From: Panorpa germanica | Taxonomy: Eukaryota; Arthropoda; Insecta; Mecoptera; Panorpidae | Reading direction: 5' to 3' | Length of the DNA stretch: 64,000 nt | NCBI GenBank assembly: GCA_963678705.1 | Contig: OY783208.1 | Coordinates: 8,680,001 to 8,744,000, forward strand | Part shown: piece by piece, positions 10,391-61,748 of the stretch | Position numbering within the stretch: position 1 is the stretch's first letter | Layout of the letters: each line of letters begins with the position of its first letter | Notes under the pieces: generated by a model | Database searches by the model: none | What the model saw: the letters and a program-made list of their open reading frames with translations, nothing else | Told to the model about the DNA's origin: nothing | Made by a program: the position numbers and the translations under genes

Positions 10391-11364
10391 CTAACCTGCA
10401 AATACAGCAACAACCATTGCAGCTGAAGAAACGACTATCCATGTGGTGTTCTGCTTTTCATTCTGATCTGATCTCTTAACGGGCGTCAACACCGTCGTAA
10501 TTTCGGTTGTGATTTCATTTCCAAGGTGTGTTTCATTGCTATTTAATTTCCCTTCCCCGTCCTTGTTCTCATCACAACTGGCTTTGACTATATCTTTTCG
10601 CTGCGGTTCTATTTTTAGAAATTCTATATGACGCAGCTCAAAATCTTTAATTTGCGTCACTGAGTCGGCAATTTCAGAAATTTCTGCTTAAATCAATTTC
10701 GTTCAAATTTGGTTGCGTTTCTTGTAAAGATTTGTTGGTCTACCAAAGCGTATTCTTCAATATTAGCAATCTGATTTTTATTTAAATTTAAAGTAGCTAG
10801 ACTCGAACAACCAGCGAATGTCTTAGACTTTACTGCTCGAATTTTATTCTCACTTAAGTCAGCAGTTTTAAGGTTCTCTAAGTTTATAAAAGTGCTATCA
10901 CTTAACTTTAAAATGTTATTATGAAATAAATTCAGTTCCCTTAACATTGGTAAGTTCAGACTTATTTTCCTAATTTAATTTCTTGCGATTTCTAACAACG
11001 TCAACCGATTTAAATTATGGAACACTTTAGGGCTGATGTCTTGAATGCCAACTCCATTTAGTATCATGCGTTCTAATTTGTTCAATCCAGTAAAGGCGTC
11101 GTCCTCAATGGCGGTTATTCTTCCAGATAGCAGCAGTGCTTTGAGGTTGGTGAAGTTCTTAAAAGCTCCGCTGTTTATTTTGTCAACGTTTACATTAATC
11201 ACAATAATGTTTGTTCTAATGGATGGGTCTTCAACGTTCCAATCGCTTGGAATAGATTTTAATTGGTTTGCATCATCCAAGAAAAGAGATGGGTTACGAT
11301 AGCCACTCTGAGCATCCACACTTAGAACAATTACAATGCACAAGTTTATCATTAAGCCGCGCAT
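10391..11364 (-). pseudogene. LRR receptor copy A, internally deleted pseudogene
   Basis: Paralogue of the intact gene at 30448-34254. It begins MRGLMINLCIVIVLSVDA (signal peptide; an upstream in-frame Met lies at 11391) and continues through N-terminal LRRs (VNVDKINSGAFKNFTNLKAL, DISPKVFHNLNRLTLLEIARN). A TAA at 10977-10975 stands where a Lys codon is expected. The frame then resumes (MLRELNLFHNNILKLS ... SLATLNLNKNQIANIEEYALVD). Near 10740 the sequence jumps to the C-terminal juxtamembrane region, so about ten repeats are deleted. Frameshifts near 10735 and 10670 follow. The last open piece ends WIVVSSAAMVVAVFAG at a splice donor (GCAG|GTTAGA) identical to that of copy C. Tail exons were not found. 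Confidence 0.85.
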
Positions 11365-11489
11365 TTTAATTCGAATAAAAAACGTTAACAAGTTAACACA
11401 AATACACTTTTATTAAAAAAGTTGGCTTTGCCACATTAGCTCACTGTTTACACACTACATTCACACTGCAATTCTTAATAGATACTGCT

Positions 11490-11734: not shown

Positions 11735-11912
11735 CTGTTATTGTCGTTAAAATGTTATGACTTAACAACAATACTTTCAACCTGGACAGGTCTACCAACG
11801 CATATGCTTTAATATTAGCAATCTGCTTTTTATTTAAATGTAGAATAGCCAGACTCGGACAAACAGCGAATACCCCAGAATATATTGCACGGTTTTTATT
11901 CTTAATTAATAG
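11735..11912 (-). pseudogene. LRR relic, about two repeats
   Basis: The minus strand encodes CPSLAILHLNKKQIANIK, AYALVDLSRLKVLLLSHN and ILTTITEN followed by a stop. These align with consecutive repeats of copy A (SLATLNLNKNQIANIEEYALVD) and copy B (LEVLGLSYNYLTTITANQF). It lies about 370 bp upstream of copy A's start. It is a remnant of another family member, or of the segment deleted from copy A. Confidence 0.75.
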
Positions 11913-13600: not shown

Positions 13601-13800
13601 TTAGTGTGCGATAACATTTACAGTTTAGTAAATATTTAGAGTTCAATTAAATAGATAAAGTGATTTTATTTTTTTTTAATAATAATAAATAATAAATAAA
13701 AATAGATAAAGTGATTTTTAGAGATCTCGTATTTGCAAAAACAAAAGTTTGTATAACAATAAAGAAGAAATTTTGTACTATCATAATCCATTTGTATACT

Positions 13801-16713
13801 TCGATGGTACGCATATTGGTCTTGTTTATTTTGAGTGTGTGTGTTCTATCCAACGTCACTGAACTCTACTTGGAAGATGGTAATGCATTAAAACGGATCC
13901 CGCAAGATTGGAACATCGAAGACCCATTACTTTTAAAATCGATTATCGTACAGAAGTGCAAACTATAAGGAGAAGTGCTTTTGAACAATTTAAAAGCCTC
14001 GAGGTTCTAGAACTGCGTGAAACAATTGACACCATACAAGACGATGCCTTTAAGGGATTAGATAAAATAAGAAACATAGCACTTATTGCAACTGATTTCG
14101 TGGAAACTGATTCTAAAGTATTTCATAATTTAAATAGTTTGCTGAGGTTAAGCATGGTTAATGCTAAAATCAAGCAAATATGGTTAAATGACTTAACTGT
14201 GCTAGAAGAATTGGATTTAGTTCAAAATGAGATTACCGCACTAGATGGCAATAGGTTTAAAAACTTACTTGAATTAAGCTGTATTAACTTAGGCTTCAAT
14301 AAAATCAATTCAATAAGGCCTGGGACATTTGCAGATTGTCCAAAGCTGAAATATTTGTATTCAAATAACACGAGCTGGCAAGTATTGAACCAGATACTTT
14401 TAAAAACCTTTACGACTTAGAAGTGTTGGGCTTAAGCTACAACTATTTAACGACCATAACAGCAAACCAGTTCAATGGCTTGACGAGTTTAACGCAATTG
14501 GGTTTAGCAAATAATTTAATAAATGAGGTTGACAGTAATGGTTTCCAAGATCTTATTGAACTAACTGGTTTAGGCTTATCACATAACTATATCACATCTC
14601 TTGATCCGTTCCTTTTGACGAATTTGACAAAATTGACCCACATTTGGTTTGATAATAACTTTATAAAGAGTTTACCTGCAACATTTTTTAAAAACACCTC
14701 TAACTTAGAATTTATACATTTTTAATTTAATTTATTAAAAAAAATTCAGTTGTACGATAACTTCGTTAGGTTGAGGCACGTCTTTCTGCAACACAATCAA
14801 ATAGAGTCAATACAATTATCAGCCACGAATCAAAAAATCATTGAGGTATTAGATTTAGGTGACAACAACTTGACTCACCTTGACGAGTCGTTTCAGAATT
14901 TAACTAACCTTCAAATATTGTCGTTAGGGAATAATAATCTTAAAAGTTATCCTCTGTGCATACCAGGCAGTTTAAAACAGATGAATTTGTCTCAGAATGA
15001 TCTATGTGAAATAGCATTGGATAAATTGTGTGGCTCTGTAAGTAAAGGGATGCTGGAAACAGTTCATTTATCTTTGAATCACTTAACATCGTTCAATTTG
15101 AGGGAGAGCAACAAGTCTTTAAGAGAAACGCAACCGCTTTTAACCGAGGTTGATTTAAACAGTAACTACTTCAACGCCGACATTATTAACTTCATTCAGG
15201 ATTTTAAGCGTGATGAATTAATTCTAAAAATTGAACCGGTGCTGAAGCTTGAAGTCGAAGTGAGTCAGTGCTTTAACAATAAAGCGGGTCAGAATGGCAA
15301 AAAGACAAACCATGAAAATGTAACGAAAAACGAAAATAGCAACTTATTTATAACCGCGAGAAAAAATGATCAAAGCACAAGGCAGATTTCACAACCTTAG
15401 CTTTTTACCTTAGTTGAAGAATAGCTTACCGTCTCTAAACACGATTTCTTTATTACAATTAAGGTACACACAAAATGTGATTCGGATAAACAGGAAGTTT
15501 GCATTTTATATTCCAAGTCGATGTTTTTATGACTTGTGGATGTTACTTTAATACGCACATAAATATTTGAGCAATTTGCGCCACGTTTTCTTATTTTAAT
15601 AATTATATTCTGATTAATGTTGTGGAGTTTTGGACCTTTATAGAGAACTATAAGCTGGCTGAGGCTTGTCTATGATCTGTGGGCGGTTTTCAAATTCTCG
15701 AACGACAAATGTCGCTCAGTTTCTCGATAACTTAGTCGGCGCAATTTTTGTAAAAGACCTTTCTACTGTTAATTACTTAATAGTATTTTTTTATTTTAAT
15801 AACAAAGCACGCAGTAGTTTTAAAAACATTTATTTTACACTACATTACTTGATTATATTGGTTGATGAAAATAGTTGTTTTGGATTGAATACCAATGCTA
15901 CAACACGTGTTGTTATCACACAATGAATAATGTTCACGTAGTGAACGCTTTGACTGAAGCTATCGAAGTGTCGCAGGATGCGTAATGTACAAATGATGCA
16001 AGGTTGTTTGTGAAACAAAAAATATAGCTATCTCGCTTGTAATACGGTTTATGAATAACTATGATTGTTGTTGCACAGATGGCAATGTATGAATTTGATA
16101 AATACATAATTTTACATAACGTAAAATAATCTTGAATTAAACATTAATTAATAATAGCTTCTCTCTGTTGAAATGACATTTGTACTGCATTTAGTGTTGC
16201 CTAACTCGTAATATTAATAACTAGTACATAGAAAACCGTTCCTTTTAAGTAATTGGCGCCATATTGTTCATATGTAAACTACAGAGGAGAATGAGGACGA
16301 ATGAAATTGCAATTTACAATGGCATCAGCCGTTCTAGATCTAATGATGTCCTTACAGCCAGTCCAGTTCACGATTACCCGAGTCTTTATAACGATGTAGG
16401 AGCGGAGCCTACCTATTTAACGATCCTGCCTGATAGTCCAGGTACGTAATTAGAGAACGCCCAACGTGAATTGTACCTAATATGAAAAAGTCAAATAGTT
16501 GCTTTTACAAACACATTGTGTAACATTGTTACAAGCTTCAAATACAACAATTAAACAGTAATTGAAAAATGTGAATACAAAGAAAGTAAGGTAGTTTTAA
16601 TTGGGTATGTTCACTATAAGTTGATGTGGTTTTCAAATGTTTCAGGGCCCCAACTTCTGGAACTGCATAGTTACAATTCTGCGGAGACAAGTCATTATGA
16701 AGAAGTTGGTTGA
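13801..16713 (+). pseudogene. LRR receptor copy B, broken ectodomain with open tail exons
   Basis: Exon 1 (13801-15400) starts MVRILVLFILSVCVLSNVTE (signal peptide) and runs through the same LRR series as copy C. It has frameshifts near 13955 and 14370 and a nonsense codon at 14723-14725. Its C-terminal part diverges (to ...STRQISQP) and lacks the half-helix and GCAG|GTTAGA donor of copies A and C. Two tail exons remain open: 16250-16441 (VIGAILFICK ... PSLYNDVGAEPTYLTIL) and 16646-16713 (...TSHYEEVG). The acceptor before the first reads TTTTAAG where copy C has TTTTCAG, a likely inactivating change. Against copy C the tail is 20 residues shorter in exon 2 and has lost two YDY motifs. Probably not functional as a receptor. 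Confidence 0.82.
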
Positions 16714-17464: not shown

Positions 17465-20400
17465 CTAGCTGACCCGGAGAACTTCGTACCGCCTAACAGT
17501 CAATGAATGTCGTGTTACCTTTTAGCTGAACTAATTTAGTCTTTGATGAACGTAATACAATGATACAAAATAATATTTATTAATATAGATAGAAACATAA
17601 AAGTATTTTATTATGATGAATGATGATGAAAACATACAGAATGAGAATAAAAATTAAAAAAATAATAATAATTAAGTAATTCAAACTCATGTCAGAAAAA
17701 AATGATTGAAAACTATGTTGTGCAGATTGGAATACACTCGGATTAATTCATTAATGGGATTTTCATTCAAGCACCTTGTGGTAAACGACATTCTTTGTTT
17801 TTTGGTCAGGCGCAAGAACAAATAAAGCGGATGGTTTGCCGACACGTGAGCATGCCACGCACAATTGACCATGAGAAAAACATGCATTTTCTAGATTGAG
17901 GCCACAAATAGTCAAGGATTGGCCCTGTGATTTGTTGATCGTCATGGCGAAGGCAAGACGAATCGGGAATTGAATTCGTTTAAACTCAAATGGCAAATGG
18001 CGTTGGGATCATCGGAATCCTTGGAATAAGAACTTCCTCATCTTTAAATTTTCCTTTAGGTATCGACGCGTGAATCACATTGCTCATCAGTTTTTTTTAT
18101 CACCAAACGCGTTCCATTGCACAGTTTTGGTTGGTTTAAATTTCTAAGAATGATGACTACCGAGCAAACCGTAAGTTTTAAATTGTGCGGTGGTAAACCA
18201 GGCACATCCAAGGAGTTTAAAAATTCACTTGGATAATTAGTGGCTTCTTCTTCGTTTGTTACACAGTCGATAGATTTGAATGAATACAGAGTACCTACGA
18301 TTTGATTTTGAATTATAAAATTGAGGTCATCTACATCTTTATTTTTAGCGGCCAAAATTGCTCGCTCACTTAACCATTTAGTATTTTTGTGGTTAGCAAT
18401 GATATCCGGGAATACTTTGTTGATAAGCTCGTCTTTTGATGATACAAAATTGCAAACATTTAGAGGAAATGAAATCAAACCGCTCGATTTGTCAACAGGA
18501 ACACGGCCATTACCGATAGTCAGCAATTGCTTCGAGAAATCATCAGCAGATAGATCGTTCAACAATGCAACTCTCATATTTACAGACAGTTGAAGTTTCT
18601 TTACATATCGCCACAGATTTGATGCTTTGAGGCAAGCGTTTATTTCGTCGGCAGCAGTAGATCTTGGAATGACTGGTAGTGTTTGTCGGAAATCGCCAGA
18701 TAATAAAATCATTGCACCACCAAAACATCTCGAGTCAATTCGCAGATCTTTTAATGTTCGGTCTAGTGCTTCCAATGCGCGTTTGTGCGCCATTGTGCAT
18801 TCGTCCCATATGATGATTTTTGATGCTACTAAAAGTTTGGCCATTGCGGAGTGTTTCGAAATGTAACATGTCGGTTGTTCAGTAGTTTGAAGGTTTAATG
18901 GCAATTTTAACGCTGAGTGAGCCGTACGGCATCCGTCTAACAATGTGGCCGCTATTCCAGAAGAAGCAATTGCTACCGCAATTTCGGATCTCGCACGTAC
19001 AGTGGCCAAAATCAATGACATGAGGAATGTCTTCCCAGTTCCACCGGGGGCATCTAAAAAAAATAAGCCGCCATTTTCATCATCAATTGCATTAATCAGT
19101 GTATCATAGACTTCCCTCTGCTTAGGATTCAACAGAGGTACATTCGTTTGGACTGATTGGATTAGTTCATGTGGATCATATTCACGTTCACGTTCCAATT
19201 CTCTATTAAATGCGTCATTCATTCCGCGATCTGGCGCTGGCATTCCTAACCTAACTAACAAACTGCCGCACATGAGGTAACACATATCTTCGATCAAGAG
19301 CAAAGTCTGGTTATGCATCTCCTCATTCACCTCAAGATCGGAATTTCTTGAGCTGACGCGAATTCGATGTAAAATATCTTCAGACATGTTATCTTTGTAT
19401 TTGTTCCATAGGTCACGTGGGTTCGATGGGAAGCATGTCGAAATGATGATAGCAAATAATGTGCGTATCTGACTTGGAGATGCAGAAATAATTGCTTCAG
19501 CGATTGTCGTGTCCCAATGAGTATCGTTTTCAAGCAAATTCAGCTCTTGACATGCTGCACGAAATGTGGGGCACACTATACCAATAACAGTTCGTAGTGA
19601 TTCAAATGATGTTGGCCCTCGAACATGTACCAGCAACAACCGCAAATAGAAACATTCATCATTCTTCGGATGAACTGTGTAAATACGACCAAGAGCATCA
19701 GTAGAACGCATATCTGGATAACCAGGAACTGCATCGCCTTGCTTCCGACGTTGAAATTTCTTCGATGTAGCGTTCCAAGTGTAATAACGTGGCATTTCTG
19801 AGTAAAGCAAAGTTCGTGCGAACGGATCGCTTTGACAAATCGCAAAGAAACTGGTCAGTGTTGTCGCTGGAGGTGTTTCGGCACGTTGAGCAGCATTCGA
19901 CGCTGTGAAATATACTCTCTGACCGTTCTCTAGATGCACCCCCAAATGTACAACAGTGGGATGACGTTCGTGAATAAGGAATGAAAATATACGCCAAATT
20001 GCTTCATTGCAGTTCACATATCTACCGACTTGATAGCGCGTGATTTCATCGTTGATATTGAATGTTTGGATACCAAAAACCGCCATGTCGCTCCCTTTCG
20101 TGACATATTTGCAAATGTATTTAATTGACTTGACCGAATTGCAATACTCAACATTACAAAGTGCCTAGAAAGTTTTGGAAAGAAGTGGTGAATATGGAAC
20201 AATCCAACTGTTGTCAACTACGAAATCGTTTCCTTTCACTTTAGTTGTGATAGTTCTACCATTATCATCGGGCGATCGACGCCGATACAATGGATAACCA
20301 TCGTTGCCTGTAATGGGCTCTGCCGTCAATTTTCGTGGATACCGTTTGGAACACTTGCCGTCGACCATGCACGGTGATTGGTGGTTGATAGTGCCACACG

Positions 20401-23178
20401 GTCTATGAATCATATTCGTGATTACAACATCATGTAGGTCTGGATCGGTTTCAGGAGCAGGAATCTCCGCACAAATGATGTCATCTATTTGATCTGGCCG
20501 AATTCTTTCGACTAACCAAATTAGAATGTGAGCATGCGGTAGGCCTCGTTTTTGCCATTCGATTGAATACATCCAGCATCGAGTATTCCCAAAGACGTGT
20601 TGCTTAACAATGTAATTCATTAGTGACCGAATTTTTTGCCTGAAAACACGTGCGGTGATGTCGTGTCGATCACTTGATGTTTGTCCGGGAAGCAGCAATT
20701 TAATAATTTCTATCCATTTCGGATTACATGTAAATGTAATGAATAGATCTGACCATAATGACGAACATATGTCATTGCATCTTGCGCATATTCATGCAAA
20801 TGACGCGGGCTACCTGTGTATGTCGCCGGTAAAATAGTCAATCGACCAACATTTTCTGAATCTCCTTCTGTGCTAATTGCATCGCGTAAATGAATATACT
20901 CTTCTGAACGCAATTTAACTTGATTCAACCGAATGAAAGTCAGGCGCTCCGTTTCGATTTTAACGTACATGTCAACGCAATATTGTTGAAGCAGTCGACG
21001 AAATCGCAACAAATAATTGTCAGAATTTTCACGAATCATCAAACGATATGCGTAATAATTCATTGAACTTACCTTCTTGGTAGTTTCCTCACCTGGAACA
21101 AATGCAGTAAAAATTGTATTTTAGAACCCCTAATAGGTTAACGACTCTTACAGCTACTCTCTACTAAATTAGAAATTACAACTTCTTTTGGGTACTAAAA
21201 GCACACAGAATAAAATGTATATCAAGTTTAAATGAAAACAACAATATTGATCTTACCATTCAATGGATTAATCATTTTGATATGAAAGTGATATCCATCG
21301 TCTCCTTGCCAAAACATCAGCGGGTATTGTAACGCGTCATATGAACGGTGTGTTTCATATATTCTTTGTAGTTGCCCAGTATTGCGTCGTGTAAGTACAA
21401 TATCACGTGTTTCCAAGTTTTCACCAACAATCAGGATTGCCACTTCATCGATTGTTGGAGCATTAAATGTGCGTTTATGTGTTCCAGCTGGTCTTTTATC
21501 TGCTCTGATCCCAACTTTATAGTCATCACTTGGCATGCGCTCTAAAGCAGTCTTGAACAGCCTGACCAATGCATGATGTTCATGAAGCATTTGCTGCAGA
21601 TCTTGGAGAATTGCTCTTTTCGTAGCTGTGTTGATCCCTTGACGCCGGTCAAGTTGTTCTTCCATATTGCCCATGAAGTATATTTGCAAGAATTTATGCT
21701 GTGCATCTTCTATAGGTTGCAATGATCCAATGCGATGGCAAATCTGGCCTTGAATCTGTAAAGTCAAAGCCATAGTTATAGTTAGATTGACAAACACTTT
21801 TTACAAACACTTTTTTTTTTCAAATAATAACATGCCATTTTTATTTCAGAGACAAATACAGAAATCTAACAAACTACATTCCAGATTTTTTTTACAATCA
21901 TAGGAAATATAGTTTTTAACGTAAATTACCTTAAATGTCGGATTATATCCGTGTTCTTCGATAATTTCCGCCCCAAATGAAGTCATTTGGAAACAGACAT
22001 TGTATTTTTGAGTGTTCGCTAGAAAATGTCGTGATTCTAGTGTTTCGCCATAACGCAGGGAGGACAATGGCTCTGGTGGCGGGACCAATGATGTCAATTT
22101 CACTTTACCACTAAGGCAGCACAAACCAGGCGTTTCACCAGCAAACCTCAATGCTCCACAATGCTGGCAAACAACGTCCATTGGACCAATGCAAACTAAA
22201 CGATGCAAGCTGTAGTCGATGGTGCAATCATATAGAAACGCTGCTCGATTCAAATCAATACTTGAACCATTTCTTCTTGCACTTCGAAGATTATTCCTCT
22301 GTTCATCTGTACGATAAGCTCGACGATTTCTCGTTTCTAACCTAGCCGTTTCACGGGCTACCTCTCTTTGCTCTTGTGTTTGAGGAGCACGAATTAAGGC
22401 CCTTCTTTGCTCAATACTAACGCGGTGCTCTTCTCGTGCAATTTCTCGTTCTTCATCAGATAATTGACTCGCGATATTCCGTTGCCTAATTGCATTACGG
22501 CTCTGCTGGGAAAGATTAGATCTTCTAGGACGCGGCATAGTTATTAATATTAATACTGAATGTGCACTCGCATAAAACCACAAAAAACCACTTTCGAGAC
22601 ATAGACAATAGCTCAAAGAGTATATAAGCACTACATATGAATAGCTTATCAAGAAATATTATAGTTATAGATAACCTATAAAAAGACATTTACACTTTTG
22701 TTAACATGTACAATAAATCTTAGGTATTATTTTCTGAAATTAAAAATTATATAATTAATAAATAATTTACACAAATTAATGTCTAAAACAAACAAATATA
22801 ACAGTACCTGAACTTTCGACACATTTTACAAAAAATAAATTTCTGAACGCACATATGAATAGTTGTTAAAACATGTTGTCATGACAACAAATGTTTGACA
22901 TGAAATAAACAAATCAGCATTTATTAAAATGATCAAATATCGAGTTTTCATTGTCGAGTTTTTTAAATTTCGAATTTTCATTTTTTTAAGATGTATTATG
23001 CTATTGTAAGTGTTGTAACAAAACCCGTCTTTGTTTTATATATTTTCATTGTTTTTAAGATGTATTATGCTATTCGGGGCGAAGACAAATCCAACGAATC
23101 AATAACCATGAATATTGGTTCAGCAGATCTCGAGTTATAAGAGTTGCAACAAACCCGTCTTTCTTTTATATATTAAGA
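17465..23178 (-). mobile_element. Helitron, near full length (5.7 kb)
   Basis: On the minus strand the element begins TCTTAATATATAAAAG at 23178 and ends GGGTCAGCTAG at 17465. It is flanked by A on the 5' side and T on the 3' side, the expected A|T host site. TC start, CTAG end and a weak GGCG...CTCC hairpin just before the end are Helitron hallmarks. The interior encodes one Rep-helicase gene, 17763-22538. The 640-bp leader contains a partial tandem duplication (AAGACGGGTTTTGTTRCAAC at about 23013-23032 and 23140-23160). Helitrons move by rolling-circle replication. Confidence 0.85.
17763..22538 (-). pseudogene. Helitron Rep-helicase (HUH endonuclease plus Pif1-like helicase), lightly damaged
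   Basis: Three exons are inferred. Exon 1 (22538-21930) starts MPRPRRSNLSQQSRNAIR and has a zinc-binding CQHCG...CC motif. Exon 2 (21755-21257) begins IQGQICHRIGS. Exon 3 runs 21092-17763. Both introns (174 and 164 bp) have GT/AG borders and keep phase. The HUH motif is in LPHAHILIWL, and the paired catalytic tyrosines are in YICKY (about 20120). Helicase motifs are GGTGKTF (Walker A), IIWDEC (Walker B), LSGDFRQTLPVI and AMTINKSQGQSL. Damage is limited: a frameshift near 20745, a TAG at about 20163 (KTF*ALCNVEY), and frameshifts near 18085 and 18000. The short terminal piece ends YHKVLE. Recently active but now probably dead. Confidence 0.88.
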
Positions 23179-24829: not shown

Positions 24830-24839
24830 TTTTTAATGT
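24830..24839. repeat. Target-site duplication, left of the Jockey-like LINE
   Basis: TTTTTAATGT here is repeated exactly at 26271-26280 directly after the poly(A) tail. Confidence 0.85.
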
Positions 24840-26089
24840 ACGCAATTCTAAGATTGAAGACATTTCCGCTTAAGTGGAAAACTGCAGAAATAATACTTAT
24901 TCCAAAACCAGGTAAAGACGCAAAAGAGGTATCGTCATACAGACCCATAAGTCTTCTTCCGGTAGTGTCAAAACTTTTTGAAAAACTTATTCTTAAAAGA
25001 CTGAAGATTATTTTCGAAAATAGCAAACTAATTCCAACACATCAGTTTGGCTTTAGACAACAGCATGCTACAACTGAACAAGTACATCGAGTAGCCTGCA
25101 CTATAAATTCAGCACTACAGGAGAAGAAGTATTGCTCAGCGGTTTTTCTTGATATCAGCCAAGCGTTTGACAAGGTATGGCATCCTGGACTACTGTTTAA
25201 ACTAAAAACTGCACTGCCAAATGACTTTTTCCAGATATTAAAGTCTTATATCACAAACAGAAAGTTTATGATAAAATATCAGAATGAAAAATCAACGATA
25301 CGTGACATTGAATCGGGCGTTCCTCAAGGTAGTGTTCTCGGACCAGTACTATATTTATTATTTACTTCTGACCTTCCTACCATGCGTGAAACAACAGTAG
25401 CAACCTACGCTGATGATACCGCAATTCTGGCACTTCATGAAGACTCCGTCATTGCTTCCGCAAAACTGCAGAAACATCTACTACAGATTCAGAATTGGTT
25501 AAAAGATTGGAGAATAAAAGTAAACGAAACTAAATCAGTTCACGTAACTTTCACACTAAGGAAGAATTCTTGCCCCCCAGTCACACTAAATAATTTACAA
25601 CTTCCACAGGCAGAGACAGTAAAATACTTAGGTATCCACTTGGACAGACGCCTAACATGGAGAACGCATATCTGGAAGAAACGGTTGCAGTTAGAAGGTA
25701 AAAGAAGAGATATGTACTGGCTCTTGGGCTGGAAGTCTCAGTTATCCATCAGTAATAAACTACTGTTGTACAAGGTCATACTGAAGCCAATATGGACATA
25801 TGGGATAGAGCTATGGGGCAGTGCCAGCAATTCTAATATAGAGATTCTACAAAGGTTTCAAAATAAACTGTTAAAGCAAATCCTTAACGTACCGCGATTC
25901 GTTCCAAACTGGTTAACTCATCAAGATCTAGGGGTTCCATATATAAGAAGTGCAATTAAGGATAGCAGCAAGAAATACGTAAAAAGATTAGAAGTTCATC
26001 CAAATGAATCAGTTGTACAACTTTTCCAGCATAAACCGATTAGACGACTGAAACGTAAAAATCCAATTGACCTACCAAATATGGTGTAG
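24836..26089 (+). pseudogene. Jockey-clade reverse transcriptase, C-terminal part
   Basis: An uninterrupted 417-codon frame. Its first ATG is supplied by the target duplication, so real homology starts at AILRLKTFPLKWKTA. RT motifs are in order: LIPKPGKD (residues 21-28), SYRPISLLPVVSKLFE (34-49), FLDISQAFDKVWH (104-116), GVPQGSVLGPVLY (161-173) and the catalytic YADDT (191-195). The Jockey-type thumb and tail follow (VKYLGIHLDRRLTW, ILKPIWTYGIELWG, LLKQILNVP). The endonuclease domain and ORF1 are absent, so the copy cannot move by itself. No internal stops or frameshifts. Confidence 0.88.
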
Positions 26090-30447: not shown

Positions 30448-33400
30448 ATGTGTAGTTCAGTGATATGTTTAATAGTTTTTAGCGTTGTTACTGTGTGTGC
30501 TCAGTTAATCGATTTTAATACAAATCTTGAATGGGATGATGCTATTATACCAAAATCAATCTCAGAAGAATGGAACATTTCAAATCCATCATCTGTAACG
30601 CGGATTAAAGTGACAAATGTAAACGTGCAGACAATAAAACACAATGCTTTTAAAAAATTTACTAACCTCAAAGAACTGGTGCTAAGTGGTTCAGTTAGGA
30701 TCATAAAAAACGATGCTTTTCACGGATTAATGAGCATAACCAACATAACACTTGAAAATGGTGTCGAGTATATTGATTATAACGTGTTCTCTCATTTAAA
30801 TCGTTTGGAAAGGTTAACCGTCGCAAGCAACAAAATTACGAATATACGGTTGAACAATTTACCGAAGTTGTTAACATTGGATTTATCGCGAAATAATATT
30901 AGAGAGCTAAATAAGAATACATTCGTAAATTTACCAAAAGTTAAAGTTATTCAGCTTATTTACAATAATATCAGTACCATAAAGTCAAGGTCATTTATCG
31001 GATGTCCGAAGCTGGAATATTTGTCTTTGAACAACAATCAGCTTGCAAATATTGAACCAGATGCTTTTAAAAATCTTGAAGAGTTGGAAGAATTATTTTT
31101 AAGCAATAACAACATAATGGCCATAACGGGATATCATTTCAAAGGGTTAGCGAGTTTAACGTCTTTAAGTTTATTAAATAATTCAATAAATAGGGTTGAC
31201 AGTAACGGCTTTCGCGATCTCAATAAATTAACTTATTTAGATTTATCATGTAACCAAATCACATTTCTTGATAAGTTCCTTTTGTTTAATTTGACTGACT
31301 TGACGGACATTAAGGTGCAACACAACGCAATAATGAGTTTACATGAAAGATTTTTTAACAGAACACCTAAAGTAAGACATATAGACTTAAGATTTAATTT
31401 ATTTAAAGAATTTCATTTACCTGATAGTTTACTCAAGTTAACACACCTCATCTTAAAACACAACAAAATAGAGGCTATAAAATTATCAGCCGCAATACAC
31501 AGGAACATAGAGTATTTAGATTTAAGTGACAACAACTTGACTCACCTTGACGAATCGTTTCAACATTTCGATAAACTTCAAGAATTGCTTTTAAAAAACA
31601 ATACACTTAAAAGTTTTCCGCTGTGTGTACCGGGCAGTTTAGTAAAATTGAATTTATCACAGAATGAACTTTTTGAGATAGCACTGGATAAACTTTGTGG
31701 CTCTAAAACTCAAGGACATTTGGTAACAGTTGATTTATCTTTTAATCATTTTACATCTTTCAATTTGACGCGGACCGACCAATTTTTACACGAAGCGCAA
31801 TCTAAATTGAACAATATTGATTTAAGATGGAATTACTTGAATGATGACAATGTGAAATTCTTTCAAACTATTAAGCTATTCTATAATTTTAATGTAAGAA
31901 TTAAACCACAGCGAGAAGCAGAGGTCAAAACGAATCAAAATGAGTGGCAATGGACCACGTGGAAGACTGTTGCTTCGGCTGCTATAATTGCAGGTTAGAA
32001 TTACAATCCTTTCTCTTGTATTTAAAAAATTAAAAGTTAGGCCTCATTCCCACTTACTGTTTTATCACCTTAATATTTTAATCTAGATTTCAGGTTTCAA
32101 AATAGGCATTCGTGTTTTAATTTGATTTCAGTTAATTTAGTTGGTGCGCATACGGCGTTAGTAATATAAATTTTAACAGTTCGACAGATCGACAAAATTG
32201 AATGTGGAATAATTAAAATTTCGGTTTGTAATAACAATTAGTAATAGAATTGGGTTAAAATAGAAATGGAATCTTTCAGAATTTCAGTTTTTTAAAATAA
32301 CATTCTTTAGAATAGGAAAAATATTAATTTCAAAAATAAATTCAGCAAGGAGCAATTATTACTTGACATAGAAAGAAGTTTCCTATGCCATCCCATATAT
32401 TTTCCATTTTCACTATTTCTGTGTTATTTTATTTTACTTTCTACTAAGTTTAGTAAATTGTCAAATTGTGAAATGTTCATTCAAGACCTCATCATATAAT
32501 TTCACTTCACTTTCTAGCTTACCATAAGCTAATTCCAAAGTGTCACACTTTCTAGCTTGCAGCAAGCTAATTTCAAGATTTAATTTTCTACCAGAGAATA
32601 ATGTTATTGAATTATGTACCCTGTTGGTCACGATATGGATTAACAGAATGAACCCACCATCTAGATCAGAAAAATATCTGCAGCAATAACACAAGTCCTT
32701 CTTTTTTTCTATGCAACAGTAAGTTGTTTTTACTTCTATGCTTTTCATAATATGACTTTGAACTTCTTTAAAAAAAAATTCTTACTGCATTTTGACAGAT
32801 TGTCAAAAATTGGAGGTTACTTTCATAATATAATATATTTGTTTTTATTTTGGTATTTTTAATTTAAAACACTGAACCATGTAATGTTCTAAAAACCAAA
32901 TACAACGTAAATTAAAATCTAAATTAAAAATGGTGCAAGGAATGACTAAGCATATTCCCATATGCTATATAGTTTAAACTAAATAGAAAATTAGAAACAA
33001 AATAAAACAGTGAGTGGGAATGATACTTTATGTTGGCATTTAATTCGAATTTGAAGAAAGTTCAAAAAGTGAGGATGACAAATATTGGGCAGTTAGACCA
33101 CCTTTCTTTTTTTAATATTTATTTGAGTGTATCAACTTTCGCTAGTTATTAGCACTTAAAACAACATATACATTTATAAACATTTACAATACATAATTTA
33201 CAACTTATAGACACTAGTATAGGTATTTAAAATAAAGAGATTAAATTAGTTTTATTGATAAAGTCAATAAGGAGGTTTTTATGCTAGTTGGACCATCTTA
33301 GATTTGTTAATAGCAAATTAACACTAGATGAATTATTAGTACTTAAGTTTCATATAAAACGGTTTCACAGAATACGACATTTTGCAGGAACCAATCTGCT

Positions 33401-34254
33401 GTGTAATAGGAAGGATCTCATATACCTAAATCATATTCTTATTTCTCGTGTCATGATTTCAACTCATAATAAGCTTTAAGGTTAGGTTTTCAATAAGAGC
33501 CTCGTCTAGAGTCTAGACGATAGAAGTCGAAACATAAATTTTAACAAGTAATGGTTATTCTCCAATTAGAACAAGAAAAAGACACTACCAGCAACAATTA
33601 ATACGAGAATTATTAATTACAAAATATAAATGAAACATCTCTGTTGAAATGACATTTGTGCTGTATTAAGCATTTCCTAACTTATAATAGTAATAATTAC
33701 TACATAGAAAACCTGTTCCTTTTCAGTAATTGGCGCCATATTGTGTATATGTAAACAACTGACCAGAATTTACTCAAATCGAAATACTAACGACGCTGTT
33801 GTATTCACCGCAACTTATGATGACGTCAGACCCACGGGAACTAATAATGACGTCACATCGCCCCCAGTTTACGACTATGCGACAAATCCTCCAATGTATG
33901 ACTACCCGAAAGGCCCACCACTTTACGACGATGTAGGATTGCAGCCTACCTATTTAACGATTCTGTCTGATAGTTCAGGTACGTAATTAGAGAACGCCCA
34001 ACGTGAATTGAACCTAATTATTAAAAAGTCAATTAGTTGCTTTTACAAGCACATTGTGTAACATTGTTACCTAAAGCTTCAAATACAACAAATAAACAAT
34101 AATTAGAAAATGTAAATACAAAGAATGTAAAGTAGTTTCAATTAGGTATGCTCACTATTAAAAGTAGATGTGTTTTTCAAATGTTTTAGGGCCCCAACAT
34201 TTGGAACAGCAGCGGGAAAATTCTGAAGGGAATCATTATGAAGAAATTAACTGA
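30448..34254 (+). CDS. LRR transmembrane receptor with tyrosine-rich cytoplasmic tail (copy C, intact)
   Basis: Inferred join of 30448-31993, 33727-33978 and 34190-34254: 620 residues, GT/AG introns, phases maintained. Signal peptide MCSSVICLIVFSVVTVCAQ, then about 15-16 LRRs (residues about 60-470, for example LEYLSLNNNQLANIEPDAF) without cysteine-rich caps. A membrane helix at about 503-524 (TVASAAIIA|VIGAILCIC) is split by intron 1. The tail (525-620) has nine tyrosines: 531, 546, 564, 566, 573, 575, 582, 591 and 616. YDDV (582) and YLTI (591) lie five residues apart, close to ITAM spacing. The protein ends HYEEIN; YEEI is the classic Src-family SH2 ligand. It is probably a surface receptor signalling through phosphotyrosine. 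Ligand and function are unknown. YxxV/I motifs could instead be endocytic. Confidence 0.82.
31994..33726 (+). other. Intron 1 of LRR copy C
   Basis: Donor GCAG|GTTAGA and acceptor CCTTTTCAG|TAATTGG. The last 100 bases match the equivalent intron end in copy B (TGTTGAAATGACATTTGT, CATAGAAAACC), which supports the acceptor. Most of the first kilobase is a transposon-like insert (32037-33030). The unspliced frame hits TAG inside the donor itself (GCA GGT TAG). Confidence 0.75.
32037..33030. repeat. MITE-like element (family D) in intron 1 of LRR copy C
   Basis: The left end, CCTCATTCCCACTTACTGTTTTA, matches the complement of the right end (AAAACAGTGAGTGGGAATGA, about 33004-33025). Outside these, AAAGT on the left matches the complement of ACTTT on the right. 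About 1 kb with no coding capacity. A partial copy ends at 35206. Confidence 0.65.
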
Positions 34255-56722: not shown

Positions 56723-59700
56723 TTATATATTATACCCAGATAACAAGAATGATCGATTCATGGCTACTGCAGTTATAAATCTCGGTTTCTCAATCAAAAA
56801 AGCGGTGTTAACAGGAAGCGTCTGCGAAGTCTGTAATACCGCCCTTTGGAGTCCATTTCTTGCCATTGATGTATTTTTACATTGCCACAGAATGTGGTCA
56901 GGGTCTGCCTCTTCTTCACCACATTCGCATTTAGAGTTTGGAATGATTTTGTTTCTTGCTAGATGTTTCGGAGCTCCAGTATGATTCATTCTTAGCCTTG
57001 AGGTCATTGTAATTAATCTTCTTGGCCATTTTAGTTTGGCAAACCATGGCTTACGTCTCAGTGTTGGTTGTATTGTATAAAATTCTCTACCTTTATCATA
57101 ATTATCCCACTTGTCTTGCCAATTTTTCATTTCATTTTTTTCTAATTCTGCTTTCATGTCTGATTTTATAAAAAATGAAATATATTTATCACAGGAAGTA
57201 GCTACCTTGGCCATTTGATCAGCTTTTTCATTTCCCTTAATTCCCTTATGTGACGGTATCCAAATTAGTTTAATATTTCGGCCCTTATCTATTTCCCTAT
57301 TTATTTTTTCTTTGACATAATAAATTTTGTTGTCTAATTTTGTATTGATTCCCTTACTGCTTAAGGACTGTATGACTGATAACGAGTCGGATAATATTAA
57401 AGTGCTGTCTCTATCATCAGTAATGATTTGATCCACAGCTAGATCTATAGCACATAACTCAGCTGTATATATGGATGCTTGATTATGAAGCTTGTAAATT
57501 CTGCTATTGTTAATATCTACTACTGCTGCACCCACTCCATCTGCTTCTTTTGAGCCGTCAGTATATAATTTTGTATAATTCGGGAATTGTTGATCTAATT
57601 TTTGTTGTAAGTCTATAGTTATTAGCTCAGGTAATATGTTGCTCATATTTAGCTCCTTGCCAATAGTTATATTTGCAGGAGTTCCTCTACCTGAGTAATA
57701 ATAATCTAATTCGAAAATTGGTATTTCTACTGGGGTTCCTCTTTCTGTCCATTTCCTTTTTTCATTTATCCAAATTGCATTAAGCTCATGACTTCTTGAA
57801 CCTGTTCTTGATAATTCGTTAAGTTCGTCCCTTATTAATGTGTTATTTGTCATTAAAGCGCTAGTCATAAAGTAAGACGTTTTCTTTATACATCTTTCTT
57901 TTAATGGTGGCATACAAGCCTCTGCTAGTAATGAAAAGGTATGAGTTGTACATATAGCTCCTAATACTATTCTTAAAGCTTTATATTGCAATTTTTCAAG
58001 TGATTCTATTGTATTGTTTTTACACATTATTAGTACCTCTGCACCATACTCCAAATGAGGGCGGACTAATGATTTATATAAATTTAGTAGCGAAGATGTA
58101 TTTAGTCCCCATCTTTGTCCAGCAAACATTTTGAGTATATTGATTGCAGGTTCAGCTTTCTTTTTAATATTGAGTATTATTGATTTTTCGGATTTATTTG
58201 TGGAAAATGGAAATCCTAAGTATATATAATTATTTGTGTATTCCAATTTTTGTTTACCTAGAGTTATTATAGGTGGCTGTGATATTTTTGAACTCATGTT
58301 AAAAATCATTAGTTTAGATTTTTCTGTTGATGCTTCTAAACAAGCATCATTAAGCCATTTCTCTAAGTTATTTACAATCTTTTGCATTTTTTTTCCAGTC
58401 TCCTCTATAGTATTTTCTTGTGATAAGAAAACTAAGTCATCCACATATGATATCCATGATATTGTTGGGTTGACATACGGTTTTATTGACCTAACCATCA
58501 TATTAAAGAGAACAGGACTTAGTGCTGAGCCTTGTGGAATGCCTTTAGAACATAGTCTCCAGTCCGATAGTAATCCATTAAACCATAGTTGAGTTTTCCT
58601 GCCACTTAGTAAATTCCTTAGTATATTAATTATTACTCTCGGTACTCCTATTACATATAATTGCCTTAATAAAAAATTGATGTTTACATTATCGAAAGCT
58701 GCTTTGATATCTACAAAACAGGCCATTGATACATTGCCTTTGCTTTTTCCTGCTTCAATTCTAGCTGATAATGCAACTATGCCATCCCTGGTACTTCTAC
58801 CTCTTCTACAGCCTAAAATTTGCTTTGGTATTAACGACTTAGAATCTAACCAATATTCTAATCTCGTTTTCAATATTTTCTCAAAGACTTTTCTGCAGCA
58901 ATTAATGAGAGTTATAGGTCTATATGAGGTTGGTTGATTTACTGGCTTATCTATTTTTAATATTAGAACAATCTGAGTATTTTTCCAGGACTCAGGAATT
59001 AGTTCTTCTTCCAAAATTGTGTTGTATATGTTTAATAATAACTTTTTAGCGATTGATGGGAGATGGCCTAACATTTCATAAGATATTCCATCTGGACCGG
59101 GCGTGGTTGTTTTCGTTATTATAAGGTGAGATTGTACTTCCCACATTTCTACTTCTTTAATCATCATTTTGCTAGAGTCGTCTTGAGTGACTCCATATAG
59201 TACGCTTTTTTGCTCAGGTACCCAGGGCGGTGCTATTACTTGTGAAAGTTCACATAACAAGTCCTCACTGTTAGGTGAATTTGTTTTCGTGCATTTTCCT
59301 GAACCTCTCATCCTATTAATTTTTCCCCATAATTGTTTAGTAGTTAAATTATGGTTTAACTCTTCGGCAAGGTTTCTCCAAGCTTGTCTTTTCTTGAACT
59401 TTAGTAAGTTGGTCGTTTCAGATTCTACTTTTTTTAAAGCTACTTTATTTGTTTCAGAACTATTTCGGTGGTATCTTCTGTAGGCTCTTTTTCTGTTTTG
59501 CACAGCCTCTTTGCATTCATCATCCCACTAAGGATTTGGCGGATATTTTGAGATTTTATTGTTTGCAATATTTTTCCCCCACTTTTTAGCTGCAGACTCA
59601 ATTGAGTCAATGAGGTAATTATACTTTTTTTCCAGCGTAGTATTGGACTGAATTTGGTTTGCCAATAAGTCTGCTTCTATTTGGTTAGAGAAATTGTCCC

Positions 59701-60424
59701 AGTCGATTGTATTTGGTACAATGTTTAATTTAAATCTTTCCTTGCCTCTGCTTGATTGACCAATTTGTGCCCCATTCATAAGTATAATGGCGTGATCAGA
59801 ACCTAGTTGATCCTCCATTACGTTCCATGAAAGTTGGCTACCAAGAGATGGGGTTGCCCATGATAAATCAATTACTGACGCTGTTCCTGAATGGATGTTG
59901 ATTCGAGTAGGAGAACCATCATTAAGGAACATCATATTGTTATTGTCCATCACCTGACATATAATTTTACCCCTTGGACAGTCATAGGTGTTTCCCCAAG
60001 CAATGGCTTTAGCATTCCAGTCACCTAGAATTAGCCTTGGTTCTGGAATAGATCTTAATATTGCATTCAATATTCCTGTAGTAATAGATGCTGTTGCTGG
60101 GGCATAAAGAGATACAACATTAATATGCTCATTACCCCATTTAATTATTGCTCCTATAATTTCAATATCCCCTGAGAGAGGAATTAAAATTTTGTCAATA
60201 AAAATGTTGTGGTTTATTACTAGAGCAACGCCTCCACCGTTGTTATTTCTATCTGCTCTTACTAGTTCCATATTTCTCCATTTGATTTTATAAGATGGAT
60301 CAAGCCAGGTTTCCGAGAGCGCGATTACTTCAATATTATTTTCAAAAACTATTTGTTTTAGATTTATCAATTTGGATTTTAAACTGCGGCAGTTCCATTG
60401 CATTATACAAGTATTTTTATACAT
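56723..60424 (-). pseudogene. I-like LINE ORF2 (endonuclease, RT, RNase H), one nonsense codon
   Basis: 1,233 sense-plus-stop codons in one frame with a single TAG at 59530-59528 (codon 299), where TGG (Trp in a PxWWD-type motif) is expected. APE endonuclease, residues 1-230: MQWNCRSL, SETWL, LGDWNAK, GSDHAII. RT: TTPGPDGISYEML, SYRPITLINCCRKVFE, FVDIKAAFDNV, GIPQGSALSPVLF and the catalytic YVDD. RNase H, about 953-1077: YTDGS, YTAELCA, LILSDSLS and NEKADQ supply the D-E-D-D residues. The C-terminal CCHC finger (CECG...DHILWQC) is at about 1166-1182. It nicks target DNA and copies the element RNA. Inactive here unless the stop is read through. Confidence 0.92.
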
Positions 60425-60455
60425 TATTTATTATGTTTGTTAACTAATATTTGTA

Positions 60456-61748
60456 TTAGAACATTTCAATATTTTGATTATCTGGGGGTGGAATAGAATG
60501 GCTATTTACAATTTTTTGGTTCAAATTATTAGTAATAGTTTCTGCTTCTAAAACTACTTCGTCAGTATCAATATTTTGGTTTATCTCCTCTGAATCTCTG
60601 ATCTCTTCTGAATTCTCAATAATATTTTTGTCTAAATCAGTTTTCTTAACGAACTCTGATTTCTTAATTTTCTCTTGTTTCTTCACTCTATCGGTTTTAT
60701 TTACGGGAATTGGCTGAGAGCGTTCGTTTTCCTTTGCCTTTTGTGTATTGTCAGGTTTTCACGTCCTTTTCTTTACTTCTCGGGGGGATCTGCGGGGTTC
60801 TGAAATTTTCAAAACTCTACGGATTTTCCTTTCCGGTTCACCGCTTATAATACAGTCTGTAATTTTCTTTTTATTTATACTTTCTTCCAAAGAAGGAAAC
60901 TCAAAAAGGTTTAATGTAAATACCTCCTTCCCACGATCAATTTTATTTTTTTCTATATAGGTAGTTTTAGCTTTAGCTTCGTTTTTATTTTTCAATTCTA
61001 AATATTTGCTGCAGGATCTATCGTCAGCTTTATGGTCTTCTTTACAGTTGCGACAAAATAATTTCTCTTTCTTACAACTTAAAGAGCTGTGATCTCCACC
61101 ACAAAATTGGCAATATTCAGCACTTCTACAGAAATTAGTGGAGTGGCCAAATTTCCAGCACCGACGACACTGTCTAATTCTTTGTATATATGCTGAAACT
61201 GGGTAAAGGATACCCTGGAAGGCTATATATTCCGGGATCTTATCCCCGCTAAAGGATATTAGGCACTTCCAAGTAGGAGTCTTTTTGCCTTCTTCAATTC
61301 TATTGAATCTAATAAAATCAGTAATTTTTGGTGCCAACTGTCTACTATTTTTATTAAAGCCTACTGCGTCATGTAGGAATACGTCATCCAGATTATCGGG
61401 GTGTAAATCGATTAGTCCCTGCACTTCTACCAAATTCTTCGGAATTATGCTATTGTATTTAGCTAGAACTATGGCGTCTTCTATAATTTTATTAGCCAGA
61501 AATGGGCTATTGGTCTCCACCTCAATTTTTCTTTGGCTGACAGCAATAATGTTAATGTCCTTATAATTTGACCGCAAATATTGTGCAATAAAGGCAGGGT
61601 TTGTGTTATAAGTAATTGGTTTTAGAATTACCAAGCACACTCCTGAATAACTATGTGGATAATAGCTGGTTCTTATCCTTTTTGCTTCAAAGAGGTCTTT
61701 CTCATGAGACCTGTCATTCATTATTATAACCTCACTTTCACTGAACAC
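60456..61748 (-). pseudogene. I-like LINE ORF1 (gag-like, three zinc knuckles), one nonsense codon
   Basis: About 430 codons in one frame with a single TGA at 60761-60759 after KKRT, consistent with a CGA-to-TGA change. Three CCHC zinc knuckles: CRRCWKFGHSTNFC (residues 194-207), CQFCGGDHSSLSC (213-225) and CRNCKEDHKADDRSC (232-246). Before them lies a region resembling the RNA-binding part of insect LINE ORF1 (SYSGVCLVILKP ... FIAQYLRSNYKDI). The C-terminus is charged and low-complexity. ORF1 proteins bind element RNA and form particles. The start may be the Met at residue 1 or 10. Confidence 0.88.

Follow-up and report, generated by a model that had tools for sequence, protein, structure and literature searches.

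The window analysed here is a stretch of 64,000 nucleotides (nt) of the scorpionfly Panorpa germanica (assembly GCA_963678705.1, contig OY783208.1, positions 8,680,001 to 8,744,000 of the forward strand), and it is taken to lie on chromosome 5. Its main feature is a functional-looking three-exon gene at 30448-34254, predicted to encode a leucine-rich repeat (LRR) receptor with a single membrane helix and a tyrosine-rich tail. The gene is one of a family of more than 100 copies, a multigene nature that the earlier sequence-only reading of this stretch had missed. The parts of the gene are as follows:

30448-31993, + strand: exon 1, with the start codon, signal peptide, LRR ectodomain and first half of the membrane helix (open reading frame, donor GCAG/GTTAG)
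30448-30504, + strand: predicted signal peptide, residues 1-19 (hydropathy only)
30595-31881, + strand: LRR solenoid, residues 50-478, with 15-16 pattern-defined repeats, not all of them regular
31994-33726, + strand: intron 1, 1733 nt, interrupting the membrane helix, with an in-frame TAG right after the donor if retained
33727-33978, + strand: exon 2, encoding the rest of the membrane helix and the greater part of the tyrosine tail, belonging to a tail-exon family in the insect's own genome
33979-34189, + strand: intron 2, 211 nt, GT/AG
34190-34254, + strand: exon 3, the tail end with YEEI (Y616, codons 34237-34248), one further residue and the stop

The three exons are read in a single frame of 620 residues plus stop, and both introns have GT/AG borders and lie in phase 1; frames, borders and maintained phase thus agree, on re-reading of the letters, with the earlier description. 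The N-terminal hydrophobic segment reaches a Kyte-Doolittle peak of 2.42 over residues 5-23, exon 1 matches the Pfam model LRR_8 (E 1.8e-69), and its AlphaFold2 model is an LRR solenoid with a mean predicted local distance difference test of 84.6 and a predicted template modelling score of 0.84. A second hydrophobic segment at about residues 505-527 corresponds to the membrane helix and is divided by intron 1; no long helix follows the LRRs in the exon-1 model, the confidence of which is low in that region. Hydropathy, the Pfam match and the model bear out the proposal that splicing completes the helix and that the architecture is that of a membrane receptor. Basic residues of the KQRRR type follow the helix in paralogues, so the tail should lie inside the cell. 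With a signal peptide, an LRR ectodomain, one helix and stop-transfer residues, the predicted product has the makeup of a type I membrane LRR receptor. At E 0.001, Pfam found only LRR models in the 620-residue protein and no TIR domain, by which a Toll-like receptor is ruled out. The tail comprises residues 528-620 and holds nine tyrosines in 93 residues, compared with nine in 479 ectodomain residues; the nine tyrosines had been counted correctly, but the boundary at 528 shortens the tail from the roughly 96 residues first given, and YEEI, although present at the tail end, is followed by one residue (YEEIN, then stop) and is not strictly terminal.

The predicted splicing of the three exons into one mRNA is supported by conservation among paralogues. 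From the 30 best ectodomain matches in the genome and ten lower-ranked ones, with the tail not used as a criterion, 37 three-exon models were built, representing 36 distinct genes (one duplicate), the window gene included. For L002, L006, L026 and L039 the stretch first examined held no complete tail, that of L002 lying just beyond it. Acceptor 1 is AG in 37/37 models, donor 2 is GT in 36/37 and acceptor 2 is AG in 34/37; as the script required phase 1 and a GT at donor 1, and the matched residue partly dictates the G at the remaining sites, this conservation is not fully independent evidence. Intron 2 measures 174-215 nt in the 36 models having exon 3, and even distant paralogues closely resemble one another in the first 16 nt of intron 1 (31994-32009 in the window) and in its final 30-40 nt. 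Intron 1 starts with GTTAG in 36 of the 37 models, a figure partly built in by model scoring that favoured this motif, and with GTTAA in the remaining one, so that in every model an unspliced transcript would run into a stop immediately behind the first helix half. A tail-less form arising by intron 1 retention is possible. The protein made by such retention would end in a short hydrophobic segment, possibly as a glycosylphosphatidylinositol-type or secreted form.

Searches of the genome with tblastn gave at least 92 matches for the exon-1 query, at least 112 for a second query and at least 166 for the tail query, counts that are lower bounds for large families. Merging of the listed loci left at least 95 LRR exon-1 loci and at least 135 tail-exon loci, of which 85 and 120, respectively, are on chromosome 5. 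For 76 exon-1 loci, a same-strand tail lies within 5 kb downstream, at a median gap of 659 nt, and among the listed loci 19 exon-1 and 59 tail loci are unpaired. Five of these 19 do have a modelled tail (L021, L022, L024, L025 and L031_2177), and an LRR exon was present upstream of five of six tail loci inspected (five unpaired, one outside the list); no LRR exon was found within 4.2 kb upstream of the tail locus C4:10211363, which has stops in frame. The family is large and recently expanded in Panorpa germanica, with, by these matches, over 100 copies mostly on one chromosome. Some members lie in open frames of about 700-860 amino acids, compared with about 500-600 codons (e.g., G000:C5:2512845-2514386), so repeat number may vary. 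On chromosome 5 (C5), the order of ten tail-exon places at about 9.08-9.30 Mb is repeated at 10.20-10.39 Mb, 1.08-1.12 Mb away; the scores of these repeated blocks are equal or nearly so, as would be expected either of a recent duplication of a large segment or of a haplotype left uncollapsed.

Remains of further members lie in the window itself:

13798-16713, + strand: degenerate paralogue with traces of three exons (tblastn within the window)
within 13798-16713, + strand: exon 1 of this paralogue, with one stop and two frame changes, membrane end not found
about 16250-16441 and about 16646-16713, + strand: its exon 2 and exon 3
10397-11391, - strand: exon-1 remnant of another paralogue, with an internal deletion and a stop, membrane end and donor motif still recognisable
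11736-11909, - strand: small LRR fragment of a further paralogue (E 1.3e-5)

Since a degenerate three-exon copy lies in the same window, the three-exon gene is not a chance reading. The two degraded copies beside the window gene would also suit a gene family that is mostly dead, prone to duplication and of little function, as would the paired tail-exon blocks about 1.1 Mb apart and the internal stops in 9/37 models. Such a family is nevertheless very improbable in our view: 28/37 models, that is 27 distinct ones with the window gene included, have no internal stop, and the tail motifs and buried LRR positions are constrained.

The tail was compared in the window gene and 23 paralogues picked by ectodomain similarity. 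Thirteen of the 37 models were left out of this 24-sequence set: nine with internal stops (L003, L008, L014, L018, L020, L021, L022, L024 and L028), the duplicate L031_7605, L012 and L013 with no clean exon 3, and the unusually long L040. The kept models L029 and L032 start at an internal methionine by choice of the script, and L002, with L041, was added later to give 25 sequences. For motif counts, six tails (L043, L045, L056, L057, L048 and L012) were added by eye from the readable ones, so that the resulting 31 tails are not a random sample. The tyrosine sites of exon 2 are these:

33816-33827, + strand: YDDV (Y546), tyrosine in 24/24
33870-33881, + strand: YDYA (Y564 and Y566), tyrosine in 22/24 and 23/24
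33897-33908, + strand: YDYP (Y573 and Y575), tyrosine in 13/24 each
33924-33935, + strand: YDDV (Y582), tyrosine in 22/24
33951-33962, + strand: YLTI (Y591), tyrosine in 24/24

Y616 of YEEI is a tyrosine in 23/24 aligned sequences and Y531 in 1/24; the 13/24 of Y573 and Y575 is due to shorter tails without that segment. Six tail tyrosines are therefore kept in 22-24 of the 24 paralogues, compared with an average of 8% for the nine ectodomain tyrosines, which upholds the motif-bearing tail first seen in the single gene. At least one YDxV occurs in 31/31 tails and at least two in 26/31, YLx[VI]L is present in 31/31, and the near-terminal site is YEE[IV] in 28/31 and Y/F-E-E/D-I/V in all 31, with 5-11 tyrosines per tail. 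YEEI is the favoured SH2 site of Src-family kinases.

The immunoreceptor tyrosine-based activation motif (ITAM) has the consensus YxxL/I-x6-12-YxxL/I, and the sequence-only reading had compared the tail with it. No tail of the 31 matches the strict consensus, by which a strict ITAM receptor is ruled out and the comparison fails in that form. The closest pair, YxxV-x5-YL, occurs in 27/31 tails, as does a relaxed pattern with V allowed and a spacer of 5-12. Sites of the inhibitory type (ITIM; tested as I/V/L/S-x-Y-x-x-L/I/V) occur in only 5/31, the window gene not among them. The fly receptor Draper, whose ectodomain is not of the LRR kind, offers a precedent for the use of paired tail tyrosines. 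According to excerpts of PMC4503800, it is an insect receptor whose tail tyrosines are used by a Src-family kinase, and it employs an ITAM together with NPXY in the Src42A-Draper-Shark axis. Paired tyrosines of the Panorpa tails could likewise recruit the tandem SH2 kinase Shark through a pathway that insects do use (PMC4503800, in part), and the 27/31 tails with the relaxed pair are in line with this; the family does not, however, have the strict ITAM of Draper, as V replaces L/I at the first site and the spacer is five residues, and we consider recruitment of Shark unlikely. The YDxV, YLxV/I and near-terminal YEEI sites read better, as motifs, as predicted docking sites for SH2 domains of the Nck/Dock and Src types than as an ITAM.

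PPxY is a ligand of WW domains and is present in 12/31 tails. The window gene (33861-33926) and its nearest copy L002 carry three PPxY that overlap tail tyrosines, and the other 29 tails carry none to two. An endocytic or sorting receptor, which would bind AP-2 through YxxPhi and WW-domain ubiquitin ligases through PPxY and mediate uptake without phosphotyrosine signalling, would account for the three PPxY of the window gene, and YDDV, YLTI and YEEI all fit the YxxPhi consensus. Acidic residues after the tyrosine nevertheless suit SH2 docking more than AP-2, PPxY is found in only those 12 tails, and 5-11 tyrosines exceed what sorting needs; we think a sorting role quite unlikely.

Selection was assessed from the ratio of nonsynonymous to synonymous substitution rates (dN/dS) in ten disjoint pairs of related paralogues, which comprise 20 of the 21 main-clade sequences that remain besides the window gene, L002, L025 and L031_2177, one of the 21 being unpaired. 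At position 3 of the repeat LxxLxLxxNxL the ratio is 1.93 (bootstrap 95% interval 1.41-2.66), above other exposed LRR positions (permutation p 0.0002); it is 1.06 at position 5 and 0.19 at buried positions. The strands of the exon-1 model fall at positions 3-5, as the short parallel strands of the concave face. Within the tail, the four-residue tyrosine motifs have a ratio of 0.14 vs 0.42 for the rest, with lower dN in the motifs (permutation p 0.0032). Among 146 pairs with ectodomain dS below 0.3, dN/dS is 0.71 in the ectodomain and 0.38 in the tail, a gap that narrows to 0.53 vs 0.45 in more distant pairs (dS 0.6-1.0). These codon comparisons indicate that a concave-face LRR position is diversifying among related copies and that the tail tyrosine motifs are constrained.

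We consider it probable that the genes form a diversified family of single-pass LRR recognition receptors, with a phosphotyrosine tail predicted to signal via SH2 proteins of the Dock and Src types, probably in immunity. Several points weigh against this. The ratios are Nei-Gojobori counts on paralogues, with pooled dS for the LRR positions, and gene conversion and alignment can distort them. Convex positions 20 and 23 also exceed one (1.25 and 1.22), and in 77 non-independent pairs the concave class, at 1.11, is barely above the convex one at 0.96, position 3 reaching 5.4 there with a very low dS of its own. Compared with L002, its nearest copy, the window gene has an ectodomain dN/dS of about 0.5 (0.033/0.067) and a tail dN/dS of 0.32; with ratios below one there is no positive selection for the window gene itself. 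Identity to the window gene averages 0.47 in the tail and 0.50 in the ectodomain, so the tail as a whole is not the more similar part; the constraint acts on particular tail residues. The SH2 preferences are taken from vertebrate motifs, and the nine models with internal stops count on the same side.

Of 7981 proteins scored in the search with the full-length protein, 1491 matched at E 0.001, generic LRR proteins being among the matches listed. The best 120 of the 1491 are LRR proteins by Pfam, in a comparison where the tails are not visible, and the top match has 35% identity over 46% of the query. Sequence matches among solved structures number 338 and are led by ALS, LGR and TLR chains, and the 50 matches listed in the structure search are likewise generic LRR proteins, e.g., LGR4/5, LRIG1 and TLRs. 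With the tail, searches of a 5.8-billion-protein collection, which needed shared five-residue words and covered annotated proteins of 0.55-1.75 times the length, gave none at E 10 or better among 79 and 364 candidates. None of the listed titles and abstract openings showed an insect LRR family bearing a tyrosine tail, and a literature search on leucine-rich repeats and immunity in Mecoptera returned no paper. The earlier statement that no named insect LRR family has this layout thus stands for the proteins and literature searched. The parallel it drew with LRR proteins in venoms of aphid parasitoids does not, as the DNA is that of a scorpionfly and the encoded protein includes both a membrane helix and a tail; a secreted or venom LRR protein is ruled out for the window gene by the conservation of both.

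Several known systems share single traits with the family. The amphioxus receptor BbLcLRR is a membrane LRR receptor with tyrosines phosphorylated by a Src-family kinase, but PMC8211107 describes it as a single receptor bearing three ITIM or ITIM-like sites associated with phosphatases, whereas the Panorpa family has over 100 copies and ITIM-type sites in only the 5/31 tails. Mosquito LRIM/APL1 proteins likewise form a lineage-restricted insect LRR family with signal peptides and a transmembrane subfamily, but have C-CC cysteines and coiled coils, and excerpts of PMC3020904 describe none with a known signalling domain. The Panorpa family differs in its tyrosine tail and in three invariant ectodomain cysteines, all single (positions 186, 393 and 417, each in 25/25 sequences); with the C-CC pattern not present, a mosquito LRIM is ruled out. 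Plant NLR and PGIP proteins are LRR multigene families for which positive selection and solvent-exposed LRR residues are discussed in the literature, but these plant proteins are not related to the Panorpa family and signal in other ways or are secreted. Since LRR receptors with tyrosine tails exist, the kind is already known; an insect family that is this large and combines such a tail with such a pattern of change appears to be new.

We hypothesize that different copies bind different ligands through the concave LRR face and that ligand-driven clustering would allow phosphorylation of the tail by a Src-family kinase. Dock, the homologue of Nck, and perhaps Crk may then be recruited by the YDxV sites, leading to actin remodelling in uptake, encapsulation or adhesion, and the near-terminal YEEI could hold the Src-family kinase in a positive loop. 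Phosphorylation, Dock recruitment and actin remodelling are suggested by the motifs together with two precedents. In nephrin, several YDxV sites act as docking sites for the Nck SH2 domain, a Src-family kinase phosphorylates them and Nck feeds back on the kinase (PMC12203975, in part), and in Drosophila the SH2 domain of Dock serves to localise or recruit this protein downstream of Src64 (PMC8106954, in part). Nephrin has an Ig-domain ectodomain and belongs to the kidney junction, so the resemblance is one of motif and not of homology. By motif, the multiple YDxV sites are those of an Nck-docking tail, a likeness by function with predicted binding. The most likely use of the receptors would be immune recognition by haemocytes or a barrier tissue. 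Recognition of self, mates or cells, in adhesion, neural wiring or gamete interaction, could employ the same tail chemistry; fast change of the ligand face also fits reproductive or self recognition, and Panorpa germanica is a model of sperm competition (PMC11464959, in part). We regard such a non-immune role as possible but not probable.

The remainder of the window contains mobile elements, and a scan for RNA families found none in it:

2432-2821, + strand: DDE transposase fragment (PF13358), probably mariner-like
18056-22652, - strand: PIF1 helicase open reading frame (PF05970, E 2e-62) with neighbouring open reading frames, probably Helitron-like
24836-26089, + strand: non-LTR retrotransposon stretch, reverse transcriptase open reading frame (domain match)
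56723-61748, - strand: non-LTR retrotransposon stretch, endonuclease open reading frame beside a reverse transcriptase/RNase H open reading frame

As far as we know, the receptor sets by which insects recognise microbes are small and stable, and mostly secreted or Toll-type LRR proteins are used. A bolder and more doubtful proposal is that Panorpa germanica may hold a germline repertoire of over 100 LRR receptor genes, diversified on the concave face like lamprey variable lymphocyte receptors and plant LRR receptors and united by one shared phosphotyrosine tail. Such a repertoire would be an insect counterpart of the vertebrate multigene immunoreceptors, perhaps with per-cell expression and tail-less forms retaining intron 1. 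If true, it would mean that a multigene recognition system evolved separately in an insect order that has received little molecular study, and the idea could be tested in a tractable animal.

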